From assembly GCA_003697105.1 (NCBI GenBank), contig RFFQ01000104.1, forward strand, positions 1-9,879: DNA of 9,879 nucleotides. The letters run 5' to 3'. Origin of the DNA: Gemmatimonadota bacterium (GTDB taxonomy: Bacteria; 4572-55; J002). Below, piece by piece: positions 2,469-9,765 of this stretch (position 1 is its first letter; each line of letters begins with the position of its first letter). The notes beneath the pieces were generated by a model that saw nothing but the letters and a program-made list of their open reading frames with translations, had not been told where the DNA came from and searched no databases. A program made the translations under genes and the position numbers.

Positions 2469-3254
2469 TCATGGATTAATTCGATCAGACCTTGCCTGTT
2501 CAATTGCCCTTAAAAAGGTCTGAAGCACCTGTTCTAGCGAGGTTTTAAAGTTGGCGAAGGCATACTTCCGCAAGGAATCGTATCCTTTTGCTTCCAGATG
2601 CTCAAAATTAGGATATGCCAAAATCGGAGCTAAGCCCACATCCTGACCGGCATCGGAGAGCGCCCCCACCATGCCGGCAACCAGTTGATTGTAGTGGTGT
2701 ACTTTCTCCACCAACTGCTCCGAATCGCGGTGTTCCCAATAACCGCCTTCATCATCAACATGCTGCAAAATACCAAGTTTCTGCGCTACATCCAGCACTG
2801 CCACCACCAGCAGATGGGCTTGCAAAAAGTTTGGCGAACCGCCGTAACGGGGATCGGAGGCATACTGGGTTTTACATGCAGATTGCCATTGCCAGCCATC
2901 TAAACCGGTGGCAATCGTTTCATCCGCCACGGTGACGGTCTGCGGATAGCGGCATAACCCGAAATGAGCCTTCTCACTGCCTTCACCGGGGTCGGCAGCA
3001 AATCCGATGAGTTGATCGGGGGCAACCTTCAAATAGTGCCCACCGTGTGGCAAATAAAACTGTGCCTGCACTTTTAACCAAGTGAACGCATCCCGCCGGT
3101 CGGGATCGCACTGTTCCCCTTGCAGATGGATCACTTCAGTCACGTGACGAAAGGGCAATCCGGCAGCAATATCGCGCAGTTGCTCTACCACCACACATGC
3201 ATTATCGACTAAATCGGTATCAAGTTTAAACTGATAATGGATGGAAAGTCCCAT
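2469..3254 (-). CDS. Conserved hypothetical protein with CKTQYASDP and PNFEHLEAKG motifs
   Basis: 261 residues, with no signal peptide and no membrane segment, so probably cytoplasmic. I recognise the overall pattern from uncharacterised proteins in several bacterial phyla, but I know of no assigned function. Motif-like stretches rich in Cys, Trp, Tyr and acidic residues are DPGEGSEKAHFGLCRYP (88-104), GWQWQSACKTQYASDP (120-135), DDEGGYWEHRD (167-177) and YPNFEHLEAKG (214-224). Grouped Cys, His and Asp/Glu residues could form a metal or active site, but that is inference. The gene begins 7 nt after the response-regulator stop. Its GAGG ribosome binding site overlaps that TGA stop codon and lies 6 nt before ATG, which implies translational coupling. 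Its place in the operon ties it to the envelope and regulatory genes around it without revealing a role. Confidence 0.85.
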   Translation of the reverse strand: MGLSIHYQFKLDTDLVDNACVVVEQLRDIAAGLPFRHVTEVIHLQGEQCDPDRRDAFTWLKVQAQFYLPHGGHYLKVAPDQLIGFAADPGEGSEKAHFGLCRYPQTVTVADETIATGLDGWQWQSACKTQYASDPRYGGSPNFLQAHLLVVAVLDVAQKLGILQHVDDEGGYWEHRDSEQLVEKVHHYNQLVAGMVGALSDAGQDVGLAPILAYPNFEHLEAKGYDSLRKYAFANFKTSLEQVLQTFLRAIEQARSDRINP

Positions 3255-3261
3255 GGTTGCC

Positions 3262-4626
3262 TCAATTTTGTCGAATGTCGTAGTACTTCATTTTTTTATA
3301 GAGATTGGTACGTTCAATGCCGAGTACCGTTGCGGTTTGGGAGATATTCCAGTCATTTTCGTTTAGTTTGGCAAGGATGTACTCCCGTTCGATCTCATTT
3401 TTCAATTCTTTCAGGGTTTTGGCACCACTAATGTTCTTCCGAAAGACGGCTTGATGGTGGGAGATATATTCCGGCAAGTCATTCGCGGTGATTTCATCGC
3501 CAACAGTCATAATCACCAACCGTTCAATTAGGTTTTGGAGTTCCCGCACGTTACCGGGGTAATCGTATTTCATCAATAGTTCCATTGCCTCTGGCGTGAC
3601 CGTTTTGGTGCGGAATCCATTTTCCTCACAAAAGGTTTTGACAAAATGGTGGACATAAATGGGGATATCCTCTTTACGGTTTCGGAGCGGTGTGGCATGG
3701 ATGGGGATCACATTGATCCGGTAGTAGAGGTCTTCCCGAAATTCATTTGCTTTGATCATCGCCTCCAAGTCTTTGTTGGTGGCGCAAATAACCCGCACAT
3801 CCACTTTGATCGTTTGGTTGCCGCCCACCCGCTCGATCTCCTGCTCCTGCAATGCTCGCAGAACTTTCGCCTGTGTTTTCAGGGACATATCACCGATTTC
3901 ATCCAGAAATAGGGTACCGCCGTCCGCTTGTTCAAATTTACCAATCCGTTGGGCGGTTGCTCCGGTAAACGAGCCTTTTTCATGCCCGAACAGTTCACTT
4001 TCGATCAACTCTTCTGGAATAGCGGCACAATTGACCTTCACAAAGGGTTGGTCTGCTCGATTACTCAGCCGGTGAATTGCCCTAGCGATGAGTTCCTTGC
4101 CGGTACCGTTTTCACCCTGAATCAGAATCCGTCCTTTACTGGGCGCGGCTTGTTGAATTTTTTTCCATAAATTTTTAATCGCTTTGCTCTCGCCGAGTAA
4201 TTCATACCGTTTTTCCAGTTTGCCGCGCAACTCACGGTTTTCTTGCTTGAGATAGCTCTGTTCCAACACATGTTGTACAGCGAGGAGTGTCTTTTCCCGG
4301 CTGAGGGGTTTTTCTAAAAAGTCAAACGCTCCTAAACGCAGGGCTTCTACCGCATGTTGAATGGTGCCATGCCCCGAAATCATGATCACGGCAATATCCG
4401 GGCGGAGTTGTTTTAGTTTTTCCAACACCTGCATGCCCTCCATATCTGGCATCCAGATATCCAGCAAAACGAGGTCAAAATCTTCCTTTTGAGCAAACGC
4501 AAGGGCAATTTCACCATTTTCGGCTTGTGTCGTACGATGCCCTTCGCTGGTTAAAATCATGCTCAGGGCACGACGGATATTTTTTTCATCATCTACAATT
4601 AATATATTAGCCGTTCTATTTCGCAT
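3262..4626 (-). CDS. Sigma-54-dependent response regulator, NtrC family
   Basis: 454 residues in the full NtrC layout. The receiver domain (about 6-122) has acidic pocket D12/D13, phosphoacceptor D56 in LLDIWMPD, S84 and K106 in EKP. A linker leads to the AAA+ domain, with Walker A GENGTGKE (170-177), GSFTGA (217-222, the sigma-54-contact loop, Ser variant of GAFTGA) and Walker B LFLDEIGD (238-245). A Fis-type helix-turn-helix lies near 427-446. On phosphorylation such proteins oligomerise at upstream sites and use ATP hydrolysis to open sigma-54 promoters. All core residues are present, so it should be active. No histidine kinase is in the window. The AGGA ribosome binding site precedes the ATG, and the gene starts 14 nt after the UshA-like gene, consistent with cotranscription. 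The regulated promoter is unknown; no convincing -24/-12 element was found here. Confidence 0.96.
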   Translation of the reverse strand: MRNRTANILIVDDEKNIRRALSMILTSEGHRTTQAENGEIALAFAQKEDFDLVLLDIWMPDMEGMQVLEKLKQLRPDIAVIMISGHGTIQHAVEALRLGAFDFLEKPLSREKTLLAVQHVLEQSYLKQENRELRGKLEKRYELLGESKAIKNLWKKIQQAAPSKGRILIQGENGTGKELIARAIHRLSNRADQPFVKVNCAAIPEELIESELFGHEKGSFTGATAQRIGKFEQADGGTLFLDEIGDMSLKTQAKVLRALQEQEIERVGGNQTIKVDVRVICATNKDLEAMIKANEFREDLYYRINVIPIHATPLRNRKEDIPIYVHHFVKTFCEENGFRTKTVTPEAMELLMKYDYPGNVRELQNLIERLVIMTVGDEITANDLPEYISHHQAVFRKNISGAKTLKELKNEIEREYILAKLNENDWNISQTATVLGIERTNLYKKMKYYDIRQN

Positions 4627-4640
4627 CGAACATCCTCATA

Positions 4641-5609
4641 TTAGGGTCCTACATATACCGTTCGGTTTCCATCTTTAGTTTTTTCCAGACAGGTTTGCAT
4701 CCGTTCTGCGAGCAAAGAATCCTCAGGAACGCGGCTCGAAAGACGGACAAGCATCCCGTCATAACTGATAATATTCCGTTTTTTATCGGTCAGGATCAAC
4801 ATTTGTCCCAATTCCTGCCCGCGGTCACCGGTTTTGGCAATAATGGCATCGTTGAGTTTAAGGGGGCGGTCTAGTTTTGCCCCACTTCCCCCGGCGATTA
4901 GTACATCAATACCGGGCACAATCATCGCAATATTTTTAGTTTTATCCAGCCCCACATAGGAGAGTACTACCACCAACTCGGCTTTTTTACGGAGGGTCGG
5001 CACCAACTCGCGCAGTGCCGTGACGGGATCATCCGCCGCAATGCGTCTTTCATTACCGGTAGGGGCGGTGCCACTGGGGGTAATGCCGGTAATACCGATC
5101 TTAACCCCTTTAATTTTTTTGATGATATACGGCTGCCAAAATACATCCCCGGAAGTTGCCCGTAGATTGGCAGAAACCAGCGGAATTTTGTATTTGGCGA
5201 AATTTTCCCGTAGATAATCCTCCCCCATATTCATCAGATCAATCGTGGTGAGATTGACCACATCCACCCCGATTTCCGCCATGGCTTCCAACGCAAATTT
5301 ACCACGTTCCTGATAAACCGCATTGCGTGCCCCAAACACCCGCCCCACATCGACTTGTAAAATGGCGGTATAGGGGTCACGCGCCTTAAATTGCTGAAGA
5401 TAGCCTGCCCGCCGGGCAAACCCGCCAACCGGATTGCTTTGTCAGCCACAGGGTTCAATATAACCGCGCAAATCTGCGCTATAAAAAATGGTAACATCTT
5501 GTGGTTTACGGAAATCAAACGGGTCAATACCTTTCCAACGCAACGCACCATAACAGGCGATGATGGTGATCCCTAGCACAATCAAGAGTATCCGTTCGGA
5601 ACGTGTCAT
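4641..5609 (-). CDS. UshA-like metallophosphatase-fold selenoprotein (in-frame TGA at codon 56), predicted lipoprotein
   Basis: Reading through the in-frame TGA at 5444-5442 gives 322 residues. An alternative, the open stretch starting with an internal ATG at 5348, would lose the signal and first strand and is less likely. The N-terminus MTRSER plus a hydrophobic run ends in IIAC (16-19), which fits a lipobox; otherwise it is a signal anchor. The family fold (UshA/5'-nucleotidase N-terminal domain) is shown by IFYSADLRGYIEPCG-U (41-56), followed by NPVGGFARRAGYL, VDVGRVFG, GVDVVNLTTID, GITGITPSG, VVLSYVGLD and PGIDVLIAGGSG. Family members I recall carry Cys-Gly-Cys followed by GGLARR; here the second Cys is TGA, read as selenocysteine. 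Expected metal ligands are mostly replaced: ND-x-HG by ADLRG, GD by GR, GNHE by TTID, LSH by LSY and GHSH by GGSG. Hydrolase activity is therefore doubtful and a thiol/selenol redox role is possible. The start overlaps the preceding stop as ATGA. I recall database names such as UshA-like (seleno)protein, but could not check them. Confidence 0.85.
5402..5438 (-). promoter_or_regulatory. Bacterial SECIS element (SelB-binding hairpin) downstream of the TGA
   Basis: Counting nucleotides after the TGA, GGC (16-18) pairs with GCC (25-27), enclosing the loop GGGUUU (19-24). CCG (10-12) pairs with CGG (28-30), leaving GUU (13-15) as a bulge. A lower stem of AGC (4-6) with GCU (38-40) is possible. In E. 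coli fdhF, as remembered, codon +5 is also GUU, with the functionally important bulged U at the same distance and a loop AGGUCU whose GG falls at positions 19-20, as here. Bulge position, distance and loop purines all match what SelB recognises. The core hairpin is at 5412-5432. Confidence 0.75.
5442..5444 (-). other. In-frame TGA predicted to encode selenocysteine (Sec56)
   Basis: The triplet is TGA on the minus strand, in frame with 55 codons upstream from the ATG at 5609 and 266 downstream. It follows Cys54-Gly55 in the motif PCG-U. Coding quality is continuous across it: the family strand and the CGx(n)GGxARR motif straddle the stop. The flanks need no frame change, and only this codon interrupts the gene. 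A SECIS-like hairpin follows it. Confidence 0.82.
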
Positions 5610-5851
5610 GAGTCATTACTCCGTGACGAATCGGGTTGAAGATCGTCAAACACATGAACAAAAAGATTGCGAATCTCGTTTTCGACCATTGGGTTGGCAT
5701 TTTCTTCATGGAATGTTTTTCCGGCAATTCGTTGGCGCCGGGTGACCAACCGCTGGTGAATAATGCGGATGAGTTTTTCTTGTTCGTGGTCTGGTAACAT
5801 TTCCACGGTTTCAAGCACATCTTGCAAGGTTGGGGTCGTTGAGTCTCCCAT
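5606..5851 (-). CDS. Small hypothetical protein with an antitoxin-like N-terminal helix pair
   Basis: 81 residues, with no signal peptide. Residues 8-40 (LQDVLETVEMLPDHEQEKLI, then RIIHQRLVTRRQRIA) follow the pattern of short cyanobacterial and other bacterial proteins annotated as putative antitoxins: a D-V-L-x-x-V-E-x-L-P start, an E-Q-E-x-L turn and a basic R-R-Q helix end. The C-terminal half is acidic and Ser-rich and not recognisable. Antitoxins of this sort normally precede a RelE/ParE- or PIN-type toxin. Here the next gene is the UshA-like selenoprotein, so no toxin partner is visible and the antitoxin label is only similarity. An AAGGAG ribosome binding site sits 4 nt before ATG. The stop TGA overlaps the next ATG by 4 nt (ATGA), so translation is probably coupled. 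It begins 18 nt after the TPR gene. Confidence 0.75.
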   Translation of the reverse strand: MGDSTTPTLQDVLETVEMLPDHEQEKLIRIIHQRLVTRRQRIAGKTFHEENANPMVENEIRNLFVHVFDDLQPDSSRSNDS

Positions 5852-5869: not shown

Positions 5870-8854
5870 TTAGTTTTGGTTTATACGATTCCACTGCCGT
5901 TTGGCTTCCTGACCAAATTCATCATTGGGATGGTCTTCTATCACTTTTTGATAGGTCAACTTTGCTTCATGAATATTATTTAAATGTTCGTAGCAACGAG
6001 CGGCTTTCAACATCGCCCGCGCCACCCACGCCGTATGCTCCGAATACAAATACCGGATACGCAGAAATTCCACTGCCGCTTTTTCGTAATCTGCTAACTG
6101 AAAATACACCTCACCGATATAAAATTGTGCCTCGACCGCCGTCTCATCAGAACGATGGTTGGTCACTTGCGTTAAGTGGTCGAGGGCATCGCTGTAAATT
6201 CGATCCTGAATGAGGAGTTTACCCAGTTCCAAATGTGCTTTATCCGCCGCTACGGTTGTGGGATAATTCTGGATGGTATGTTGGAACGTTGTCCGCGCCT
6301 CAATGCGCTGTTTTAATTGCAATTGGCACACACCGAGATAGTATAACGCATCCGCCACACGCACGTGTTGGGGATAGGTGTTGATTAAGGCTTCAAAATC
6401 GTTGGCTGCCGGTGCATACCGCTGTTGTTGGTATTGAATGAGTGCCATATTGAAGAGTGCTTCCGGGGCGGTTTCCCGGTCACTGTATTGTTCCACCACC
6501 GCTTGGTAATGAATATAGGCGTTGGTCAAATCATTGAGTTCCAAATATGCCGCACCCATCCACATATAGGCATCATCCGCATACTCACTTTGGGGGTAAT
6601 CCGTGATAACTTTTCGATATTCCTGAATGGCAGTTTCAAACTGGTTTAAATTGAAATACAATTCTCCTTTACGAAATTGCAATCCGGCGGCAAATTCCGT
6701 TTTTGGATGTTGACGGATGTATTCATCCGCCACGTTGACCGCCTCCTCGTCGCGCCCCATTTGGATGTATGCCCATTGCAGCCCGCTAATGGCATCATCC
6801 ACCCACTCGCTCTGGGGATAATGTTCAATTACTTTGCGATACGCCATCACCGCTTCCTCGTAGTTTCCCAAATTAAAAAGGCAATCCCCAATGGCATATT
6901 GTGCCCGGTCGGCATAGTTGCTGGCGGGATTATCGTTAATCACTTGGGAATATGCTTTGACGGCGTCCTGAAATCGATTTTGTTTAAAGTAAACAGTACC
7001 GACATTGAATTGAGCTTCCGCCCGGAGCGGGCTTTGTGGAAAATCACGGATCAAGAGCTGGTAACGGCTCACGGCGGCATCATATTGTTCCAGTTGGTCC
7101 AGACAATCCCCGATCCGGAGGTACGCATCGTCCACAAATTCAGAATCACCGTAACGTTGAATCAGGTATTCCAAGGCAGTAATCGCCTCGGAAAACTGCT
7201 GTTGGTTAAAAAGCGATTCTCCAATTTGGCGCTGGCTCTCCGGAGCAAAAGAACTTTGGGGATAATTTTGGGTCACGGCGGAGAAATCCACCACCGCCCG
7301 GTCATATTTGCCGAGTTGGAAGTAACACCACCCGCGCCCGTAGTATGCTGCTGCCGTCATGGAGCTTTCAGGATAATCGCTTAGAATCCGGTTGTACGCA
7401 TTAAGCGCCTCGGTATATTTTTTTTGGGCAAATTGGCTTTCACCCAACCAATAAAGAACTTCTGGGGCGTCTTCATGGGCGGCATGTGTTGCCAGAAAAT
7501 CCTGAAAAATCGCCACCGCTTCGGCATAGCGCTGTGTCTGGTAACGCGCTAACCCTTGTTTGTACCGGGCGCGGATGGCAAAATCGTGGTAAGGGTGATT
7601 TTGAATAACTAAACCATAGCTAACAAAGCTGGCTTCATATTGCCCCATTTCGTACTGGCACTCTGCTATCATATACTGTGCGGCAGCAATCAGCGTGGAA
7701 TCCGACCCCGCCAGCAGGTCTTCGTAGCGCTGTTTTGCTTCAGCAAATGCCCGTTTCCGGAACAAGAGCCGGGCAATGGCAAATTCCGCATCATCCCGCA
7801 GGTCACTTTGGGGGAATTTTTCGATCATTTGCCGGAAAATAACCTCCGCTTGGGTCAACCGGTTAAGCCGTTCGTAGCAAATACCGCTGTTGAATAGGGC
7901 ATCATCCGCATAATCGGATTGGGGAAATTGGCTGTACACCTCGCGGAACGCTTCTGCCGCGGCTTCAAACTGCTCTTGAGCAAAGTACGTTTTAGCAATA
8001 CCAAATTGAAGTTGGTCTGCATAAGCGCTGCCGGTATGGGTGCGCAAGCCTTGCTGGTAGGTCTGCCGGGCTTGATCATATTCCTGCAAAAAATAGAGGG
8101 CTTCGCCGAGCAAATAGCGCCCTTCCACGGCATAACCCGCATCAGGTGTCGCTTCCAAAAGGGATGCCAACCCGTCGCGAGCCTCCGCATAGCGCCCTTG
8201 ATAAAAAAGCGCCCGGTACAACTGAAATTGACTGCCCGGCACGAGGGAACTTTGCGGGAACTCCTCCACCACCTTGCGAAATGCCCCGGCGGCTTTGACC
8301 TGATCATTCAACTGGCGGTAGCACCAACCCAACGAATAAAACGCATAAGGTTCCACCCGGGACCCACCATATTCCAAAATGACCGTTTGGTACGCTTTAA
8401 TCGCTTTCGGGAAATCCTGTAATTTGAAGTAACATTCACCAATCCAATACTGCGCCTCGCTACAGATAGCCCCCTCACATTGACTCAGTGCCTGCTGGTA
8501 AAATTCCAGTGCGGTGTCGTAGTCCTGCTGGTCAAAGTGAATCTTACCCAACCGGAAATTCGCCTCATCCAGAAACGTGCTTGTGGGATATTTTGCCAGC
8601 AACAACTGATATTCATAGGTTGCCCGTTGGAGTTTGCCGGAAAAAAATAGACTTTCGGCTTTTAAGTACTGTGCCTCGTGCAACCGCCCGTCCGTGGGAT
8701 AGGTTGTAATAAACCGGTCTAATTCTTCCACGGCTAACCCGTACAATTTATCAGTAAACAGACCCTTTGCCGTGCGCCAATCTCGATCCGCATTGGAGGC
8801 GTAAGCTGGATGTAGCGCGGCAAGAAAAAACAACACCAATAGCCCTTTTTTCAT
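5870..8854 (-). CDS. Exported tetratricopeptide-repeat protein with about 25 repeats
   Basis: 994 residues from the ATG at 8854. That start has GAGGG 5 nt upstream and gives a textbook signal peptide, MKKGLLVLFFLAALHPAYA. The in-frame ATG at 8866 has no ribosome binding site. The whole mature protein is TPR repeats of about 36 residues. Each repeat closes with a YPQS-like phrase; I count 25, including YPTDGR, FPQSSL, FPQSDY, YPESSM, YPQSSF, YGDSEF, NPASNY, YPQSEW, YPQSEY, YPQHVR and HPNDEF. Helix A carries A-x-Y-x-L/I-G-x-x-Y/C-F and helix B carries Y-x-x-A-I/V-x-x-Y/F. TPR solenoids are protein-binding scaffolds. With an export signal and no membrane segment, this one is periplasmic or envelope-associated, resembling the TPR part of YbgF/CpoB and BamD but much longer. 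No other domain is seen. It is the first gene of the minus-strand operon. Confidence 0.92.
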   Translation of the reverse strand: MKKGLLVLFFLAALHPAYASNADRDWRTAKGLFTDKLYGLAVEELDRFITTYPTDGRLHEAQYLKAESLFFSGKLQRATYEYQLLLAKYPTSTFLDEANFRLGKIHFDQQDYDTALEFYQQALSQCEGAICSEAQYWIGECYFKLQDFPKAIKAYQTVILEYGGSRVEPYAFYSLGWCYRQLNDQVKAAGAFRKVVEEFPQSSLVPGSQFQLYRALFYQGRYAEARDGLASLLEATPDAGYAVEGRYLLGEALYFLQEYDQARQTYQQGLRTHTGSAYADQLQFGIAKTYFAQEQFEAAAEAFREVYSQFPQSDYADDALFNSGICYERLNRLTQAEVIFRQMIEKFPQSDLRDDAEFAIARLLFRKRAFAEAKQRYEDLLAGSDSTLIAAAQYMIAECQYEMGQYEASFVSYGLVIQNHPYHDFAIRARYKQGLARYQTQRYAEAVAIFQDFLATHAAHEDAPEVLYWLGESQFAQKKYTEALNAYNRILSDYPESSMTAAAYYGRGWCYFQLGKYDRAVVDFSAVTQNYPQSSFAPESQRQIGESLFNQQQFSEAITALEYLIQRYGDSEFVDDAYLRIGDCLDQLEQYDAAVSRYQLLIRDFPQSPLRAEAQFNVGTVYFKQNRFQDAVKAYSQVINDNPASNYADRAQYAIGDCLFNLGNYEEAVMAYRKVIEHYPQSEWVDDAISGLQWAYIQMGRDEEAVNVADEYIRQHPKTEFAAGLQFRKGELYFNLNQFETAIQEYRKVITDYPQSEYADDAYMWMGAAYLELNDLTNAYIHYQAVVEQYSDRETAPEALFNMALIQYQQQRYAPAANDFEALINTYPQHVRVADALYYLGVCQLQLKQRIEARTTFQHTIQNYPTTVAADKAHLELGKLLIQDRIYSDALDHLTQVTNHRSDETAVEAQFYIGEVYFQLADYEKAAVEFLRIRYLYSEHTAWVARAMLKAARCYEHLNNIHEAKLTYQKVIEDHPNDEFGQEAKRQWNRINQN

Positions 8855-8859
8855 GGTAT

Positions 8860-8864
8860 CCCTC
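8860..8864 (-). promoter_or_regulatory. Shine-Dalgarno sequence that selects the ATG at 8854
   Basis: GAGGG lies 5 nt upstream of ATG 8854 and partly overlaps the alternative ATG at 8866, which has no purine-rich site ahead of it. The shorter start is therefore preferred. Confidence 0.7.
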
Positions 8865-8881
8865 ATGGTTATATCAATACA

Positions 8882-9177: not shown

Positions 9178-9765
9178 CTATTCCTCCTCGTCCTGAAAAT
9201 CCGCTTTAATCTTGCCCCAACTGGAACTGCCCACATCGCTGACACCGATTCCAACCTCCGTTGCCGCCCAATTCTCCACCGGAATGGAATCATTGGGACC
9301 GGGAATCGCGACGCAACGTAGCAGGTCAGACCGGTAATTACCGGTAATCCGAAAATTGATGGGACAAACCCCCTCACCCACCGCCGTGAAGGTCACGGAA
9401 CAGAGTTCTCCAGAGCCATACGCGCACGGCAGGTCACCATTTCGCACAAAGGCAAAGGTGTAATTGCTCCACCCTTGTTCATCCGGGGGATAGGCGCCCA
9501 GCGGCGCCTGACATTCGCCCACATCCAACATAAATTGCCCAAACGTCCATGATTCTGGATTGACATTGAGTAGAGATTGATCATATTCCAACGTGATGGA
9601 AACACCGCCTAATGAATCCACATCGGTCACGTACACATAAACAGTGACTTGCTGATTGAGTTCGATCCGCCCGTTTGGCGCATCGGTCTCCAAATAGACC
9701 TCTGTGGCGAGCGCCACCGTAGCGGTTAGCAACACGACCCATAAGGTACTGAAAAAATAGCGCAT
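9178..9765 (-). CDS. Secreted protein with a cohesin-like domain
   Basis: 195 residues. The signal peptide is about 1-20, with a likely cut in ALA-TE. Residues 22-145 form one beta-sandwich of cohesin type: L-N-Q-Q-V-T-V-x-V-x-V-x-D-V-D-S-L-G-G (36-54) and V-S-I-T-L-E-Y-D-x-S-L-L-x-V (55-68) match the first strands of cohesins and related carbohydrate-binding folds, and GSGELCSVTFTAVGEG (117-132) matches the later G-x-L-x-x-x-x-F strand. In cellulosomes cohesins bind dockerins. In this setting, single cohesin-like domains occur in many secreted proteins of unknown role, and no dockerin is visible here. Cysteines at 85, 114, 122, 134 and 151 may form disulfides after export. The C-terminus has SSSWGKIKADF (180-190) and a final acidic tail. 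AAGGAG is 5 nt before ATG. It follows the right-edge gene by 38 nt and ends at a strong terminator, so it is last in that unit. Confidence 0.82.
   Translation of the reverse strand: MRYFFSTLWVVLLTATVALATEVYLETDAPNGRIELNQQVTVYVYVTDVDSLGGVSITLEYDQSLLNVNPESWTFGQFMLDVGECQAPLGAYPPDEQGWSNYTFAFVRNGDLPCAYGSGELCSVTFTAVGEGVCPINFRITGNYRSDLLRCVAIPGPNDSIPVENWAATEVGIGVSDVGSSSWGKIKADFQDEEE

Follow-up and report, generated by a model that had tools for sequence, protein, structure and literature searches.

Gene content of the locus

The stretch of DNA analysed here (the window, 9,879 nt) carries a gene for an UshA-like protein on its minus strand, the features of which are collected in Table 1. Its start codon, ATG, lies at 5609-5607 and its stop codon at 4643-4641, and translation gave a single internal stop, the TGA at codon 56, in the context IEPCG-TGA-QSNPVGGFARR. 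The first-pass annotation had described a 322-codon gene whose only interruption is this TGA, directly after Cys-Gly, and our translation agrees, placing the gene on the minus strand. It had also proposed that the start is coupled to the previous gene by ATGA, and the overlap with the stop of an 81-aa ORF was indeed seen. Searches of Pfam and NCBIfam with this ORF gave no match. Because the ORF itself terminates in TGA and the selenoprotein gene has just one, UGA is not generally reassigned.

Table 1. Coordinates of the predicted selenoprotein gene and associated features in the window
Feature	Position	Strand	Remarks
UshA-like (predicted) selenoprotein gene	4641..5609	minus	322 codons, read through TGA codon 56; NF041198 match; fold of 5'-nucleotidase N-terminal domain
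In-frame TGA codon 56, predicted selenocysteine	5442..5444	minus	TGA/Cys aligned in relatives
Pro-Cys-Gly-Sec motif (Sec predicted), codons 53-56	5442..5453	minus	C54 and position 56 (Cys/Sec) invariant across alignments of 58 and 77 relatives
SECIS-like hairpin GGUUUGCCC-GGC-GGGCAGGCU	5402..5422	minus	loop 28 nt after UGA
N-terminal hydrophobic helix, residues 3-25, putative signal/anchor	5535..5603	minus	AlphaFold2 model
81-aa ORF upstream of the selenoprotein gene	5606..5851	minus	ATGA overlap, translationally coupled

An AlphaFold2 model of the selenoprotein, built on a 58-sequence alignment, reached a pLDDT of 93.4 and begins with a hydrophobic helix, in keeping with the signal-type N-terminus described earlier. 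A lipobox-like IIAC, judged by eye from the sequence, lies within this helix at residues 16-19. The hydrophobic segment would export the product or anchor it. Downstream of the TGA, a 235-aa ORF starts at 5348, where annotation pipelines had been expected to truncate the gene to an internal ATG. A standard gene caller would indeed shorten the gene, but the start codon at that position is GTG.

Directly downstream of the selenoprotein gene, a sigma-54-dependent response regulator with receiver, AAA+ and Fis-type HTH domains is encoded on the minus strand at 3262-4626. It is separated from an Omp85-type (POTRA) protein at 684-2402 by a 261-aa ORF without a Pfam match (2469-3254, minus). Upstream of the 81-aa ORF lie, both on the minus strand, a 998-aa protein consisting almost entirely of TPR repeats (5870-8866) and a 195-aa exported-looking protein (9178-9765). 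In the latter a cohesin domain was matched weakly (E 0.00095), short of the Pfam cut-off.

Codon 56 falls on a conserved Cys/Sec column

In a genome search, the matched stretch of homologues from four other genomes contained a single internal TGA, always as PCG-TGA, and further genomes had Cys in the same column, as PCGC, NCGC, PCSC or PCNC. Position 56 of homologues is thus occupied by Cys or by an in-frame TGA, as would be expected from the Cys/Sec exchange on which the first-pass annotation had relied. We then ran the pattern Pro-Cys-Gly-TGA-x5-Gly-Gly-x-Ala-Arg-Arg on GTDB genomes, where it matched at least 119 stretches elsewhere. Among these matches, 80 loci were read, and all except one (L067) are family homologues whose TGA occupies this column. 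Represented among them are Myxococcota, Krumholzibacteriota, Gemmatimonadota, KSB1, Calditrichota, Latescibacterota, Acidobacteriota, Armatimonadota and other groups, and Sec forms occur in Myxococcus and Corallococcus species.

The family is marked by a conserved Cys54-Gly55-Sec56 and, after it, Gly62-Gly63-x-Ala65-Arg66-Arg67. Four columns, C54, position 56 (Cys/Sec), G62 and G89, do not vary in an alignment of 77 members. Since the TGA at codon 56 sits in a column that is Cys or Sec in 77/77 aligned relatives, it is not there by chance.

The copy itself is divergent, with at most 31% identity to its nearest relatives, and forms a lone deep branch of uncertain placement in the tree. Close relatives were sought by peptide patterns in genome contigs and none were found. 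The phylum comprises two genomes in all, and the other one has no homologue with which the TGA could be compared. The motif pattern had no match in viral contigs, nor did a Cys-form pattern in 80 genomes of the phylum to which genome G026 belongs. The gene neighbours of the KSB1 relatives (an OmpA-AMIN porin-like protein and a helicase) form no operon in common with the window.

The genome encodes a complete selenocysteine decoding apparatus

The source genome (4.18 Mb, 96.9% complete, 199 contigs) was searched for selA, selB, selC and selD, which the first-pass annotation had named as the test of its proposal, and all were present. Scores were 585 bits for selA (cut-off 268), 383.8 bits for selB (cut-off 242) and 355.9 bits for selD (cut-off 125). 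The tRNA-Sec scored 63 bits and was also called by ARAGORN as tRNA-SeC with anticodon tca (UCA). With these four components the decoding apparatus is complete. An in-frame TGA also interrupts selD (contig C12, locus L049 941-1864), in ACAGU, which makes SelD a predicted selenoprotein too and the second candidate in this genome.

A SECIS-like hairpin follows the UGA

A SECIS-like hairpin was found at 5402-5422, within the stretch 5402-5444 that the first-pass annotation had named for a SECIS search. It has a 9-bp stem, a GGC loop, a spacing of 28 nt and a free energy of -11.9 kcal/mol, and agrees in every respect with the published bSECIS model, which requires G at loop positions 1 and 2, a loop of 3-9 nt, a stem of 4-16 bp, a spacing of 16-37 nt and an MFE of at most -7.5 kcal/mol (PMC13188914). 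Rfam searches of the window and of the SECIS stretch gave no relevant match; Rfam may hold no model for such bacterial SECIS elements. Plain dinucleotide shuffles gave unremarkable folding free-energy z-scores (-0.04 to -0.39). As these were uninformative, tests based on synonymous recoding and on covariation were used instead. Compared with recodings in which synonymous codons were drawn at random according to the gene's own codon usage, the hairpin was more stable (z -2.62, p=0.008).

Across 83 Sec genes, the hairpin loop lies either at 18-19 nt or at 28 nt after the UGA. A z-score below -1.5 was obtained in 31 genes for the first position and in 32 for the second, and in only 3 of the 83 for both. 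In loci L057-L136 the loop is GGUC at 18-19 nt and GGC or GGA at 28 nt, each with a separate stem.

For the covariation test, sequences were split by their second Gly codon (GGU or not) so as to avoid selection by folding, and stem pairs in which both bases are third codon positions were scored. In the non-GGU set (34 distinct sequences), three such wobble-wobble pairs were paired in 34/34, 33/34 and 26/34, with permutation p <= 0.0001, values that are optimistic because the permutation ignores relatedness. Compensatory changes at these pairs included C-G, U-A, A-U and G-C, and the GGU set had no excess pairing at the same positions. The pairing pattern is not accounted for by codon choice on its own.

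These data bear on two other accounts of the TGA. Were it a real stop, the gene would be a pseudogene or only the 235-aa product initiated at the GTG would be expressed. That ORF does exist and the copy is divergent, but the TGA stands exactly on an invariant Cys/Sec column shared by relatives in many phyla, the remainder of the gene is intact with a confident fold over its full length, the Sec machinery is present, and the covariation of the SECIS hairpin is independent of codon choice. The downstream product would also miss strand 1 of the fold (residues 37-44). We therefore consider a real stop very improbable. A sequencing or assembly error, codon 56 being in truth TGC or TGT of an ordinary Cys form, is still harder to credit. 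The number of contigs in the assembly and the Cys forms known in other bacteria speak for it, but the error would have had to produce TGA, and no other codon, in the one column where relatives commonly have TGA, in a genome with Sec machinery and beside a SECIS hairpin more stable than its synonymous recodings.

Taken together, the homologue column, the Sec machinery and the hairpin all favour the selenoprotein predicted at first pass. The TGA at codon 56 very probably encodes selenocysteine in an UshA-like Cys-Gly-Sec/Cys selenoprotein. SelB and tRNA-Sec would decode the UGA, aided by the hairpin.

The gene is a divergent member of a known selenoprotein kind

A Pfam search of the selenoprotein gave no match. 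In NCBIfam it matched NF041198 (UshA_like_PCGU) at 9.7e-50 over profile positions 20-270 of 519. The whole-protein score was 169.6 bits, or 160.6 in a second run, under the curated cut-off of 275, and hence the selenoprotein is not formally a member of NF041198. The shortfall is mainly due to the missing C-terminal cytochrome c554 region: relatives that carry a C-terminal region with four CxxCH motifs scored 294.1, 280.6 and 273.7 bits, at or near the cut-off. The protein thus shares with NF041198, an 'UshA-like (seleno)protein' model, the UshA-like domain with its PCG-Sec/Cys motif, but the part of the model from about position 348 to 519, which the cytochrome c554-like region of relatives matches, is absent here, and almost all metal ligands are gone. 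NF049981 (UshA-like selenoprotein family 2) is distantly homologous over the same domain, its score of 54.4 bits lying below the cut-off of 140, and has a CxxU motif, whereas this gene has CxU.

The Global Ocean Sampling (GOS) survey listed 76 Sec and 92 Cys forms of an UshA-like CxU selenoprotein (COG0737), which its authors separate from families with Cys-based redox motifs (PMC2398784). The same kind appears again in reviews of 2022 and 2026 (PMC9312934, PMC13188914). Both marks of that kind, a COG0737-type protein and a Cys-x-Sec motif (here CGU), are present in the gene, although it is one more divergent sequence, from another lineage, and the likeness is one of description, not of compared sequences. 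With the UshA-like CxU kind already catalogued, the gene counts as a new and divergent representative of it and not as a new kind.

The hydrolase site is largely lost

Searched against the PDB, the family profile found 5'-nucleotidases, UshA and SoxB, and the model superimposes on the 5'-nucleotidase N-terminal domain with Z 34 (Z 34.6 to 2z1a). The N-terminal domains of 5'-nucleotidase/UshA/CD73 and of SoxB share this fold (Z 31-35, rmsd mostly 2.2-2.8 over about 275 residues). Compared with these enzymes, the protein is without seven of the eight metal or catalytic residues and without the C-terminal substrate domain, and has the CG-Sec motif.

The genome also encodes a canonical UshA-like paralogue in which all eight two-metal and catalytic residues are present (D, H, D, N, H, H, H, H), and this paralogue served to define the eight columns. 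Of the set DxH, D, NH, H and HxH, only D46 is kept in the selenoprotein. Among 77 family members the maximum is 5/8, the Asn of GNH occurs in 0/77 and the His that follows it in 3/77; these counts come from a divergent alignment (about 25% identity) in which the control paralogue behaves as expected. As no member has the full ligand set and C54 and position 56 are invariant, conservation of the Cys/Sec pair far exceeds that of the phosphoesterase site.

It may be asked whether the selenoprotein has retained the activity of a metallophosphoesterase or of a SoxB-like hydrolase, its Sec being an accessory residue. The fold and the sequence relation to 5'-nucleotidase and SoxB point that way, as do the relatives that keep up to five of the eight active-site residues. 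Against it stand the survival of D46 alone in this copy and the absence of the GNH Asn from all 77 aligned members, only three of which have the following His, and we think continued hydrolase activity unlikely. Our reading is that the product would adopt the metallophosphoesterase fold of the 5'-nucleotidase N-terminal domain with the usual two-metal ligands gone, and that the Cys/Sec pair may form, next to the former phosphoesterase site, a centre for redox chemistry or metal binding.

A possible link to c-type cytochromes

In many Sec relatives the UshA domain is followed by four CxxCH motifs, a region matched by Cytochrome_C554 in L019 and L044. Other relatives, including the KSB1 loci L107, L112 and L128, end without it. 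The window itself has no recognisable c-type cytochrome gene. Elsewhere in the same genome, on contig C114 (L178 1432-2058), a separate 208-aa tetraheme c554-like protein matches the C-terminal region of NF041198 and has 24% identity to the fused region of L019. This protein could be a partner of the UshA-like selenoprotein, encoded apart from it.

The redox or metal centre might then work with c-type cytochromes. We hold the chances of such a redox/cytochrome role for the Cys/Sec pair to be about even. The fuller picture, of a metallophosphoesterase fold repurposed around a Sec/Cys redox or metal centre acting with c-type cytochromes, in a family with two nearly exclusive SECIS positions, is offered tentatively, at slightly less than even chances. 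A limited literature search, in which key papers may have been missed, found no earlier report of the ligand loss or of the two SECIS positions.

Significance for the family

With this gene, a known selenoprotein kind gains a divergent member from a sparsely sampled phylum, and an example of a copy that a standard gene caller would shorten. In the family, strict Cys-Gly-Sec/Cys conservation goes together with loss of the hydrolase ligands, which makes the role of the UshA-like selenoprotein testable as a redox or metal function and not as that of a nucleotidase.
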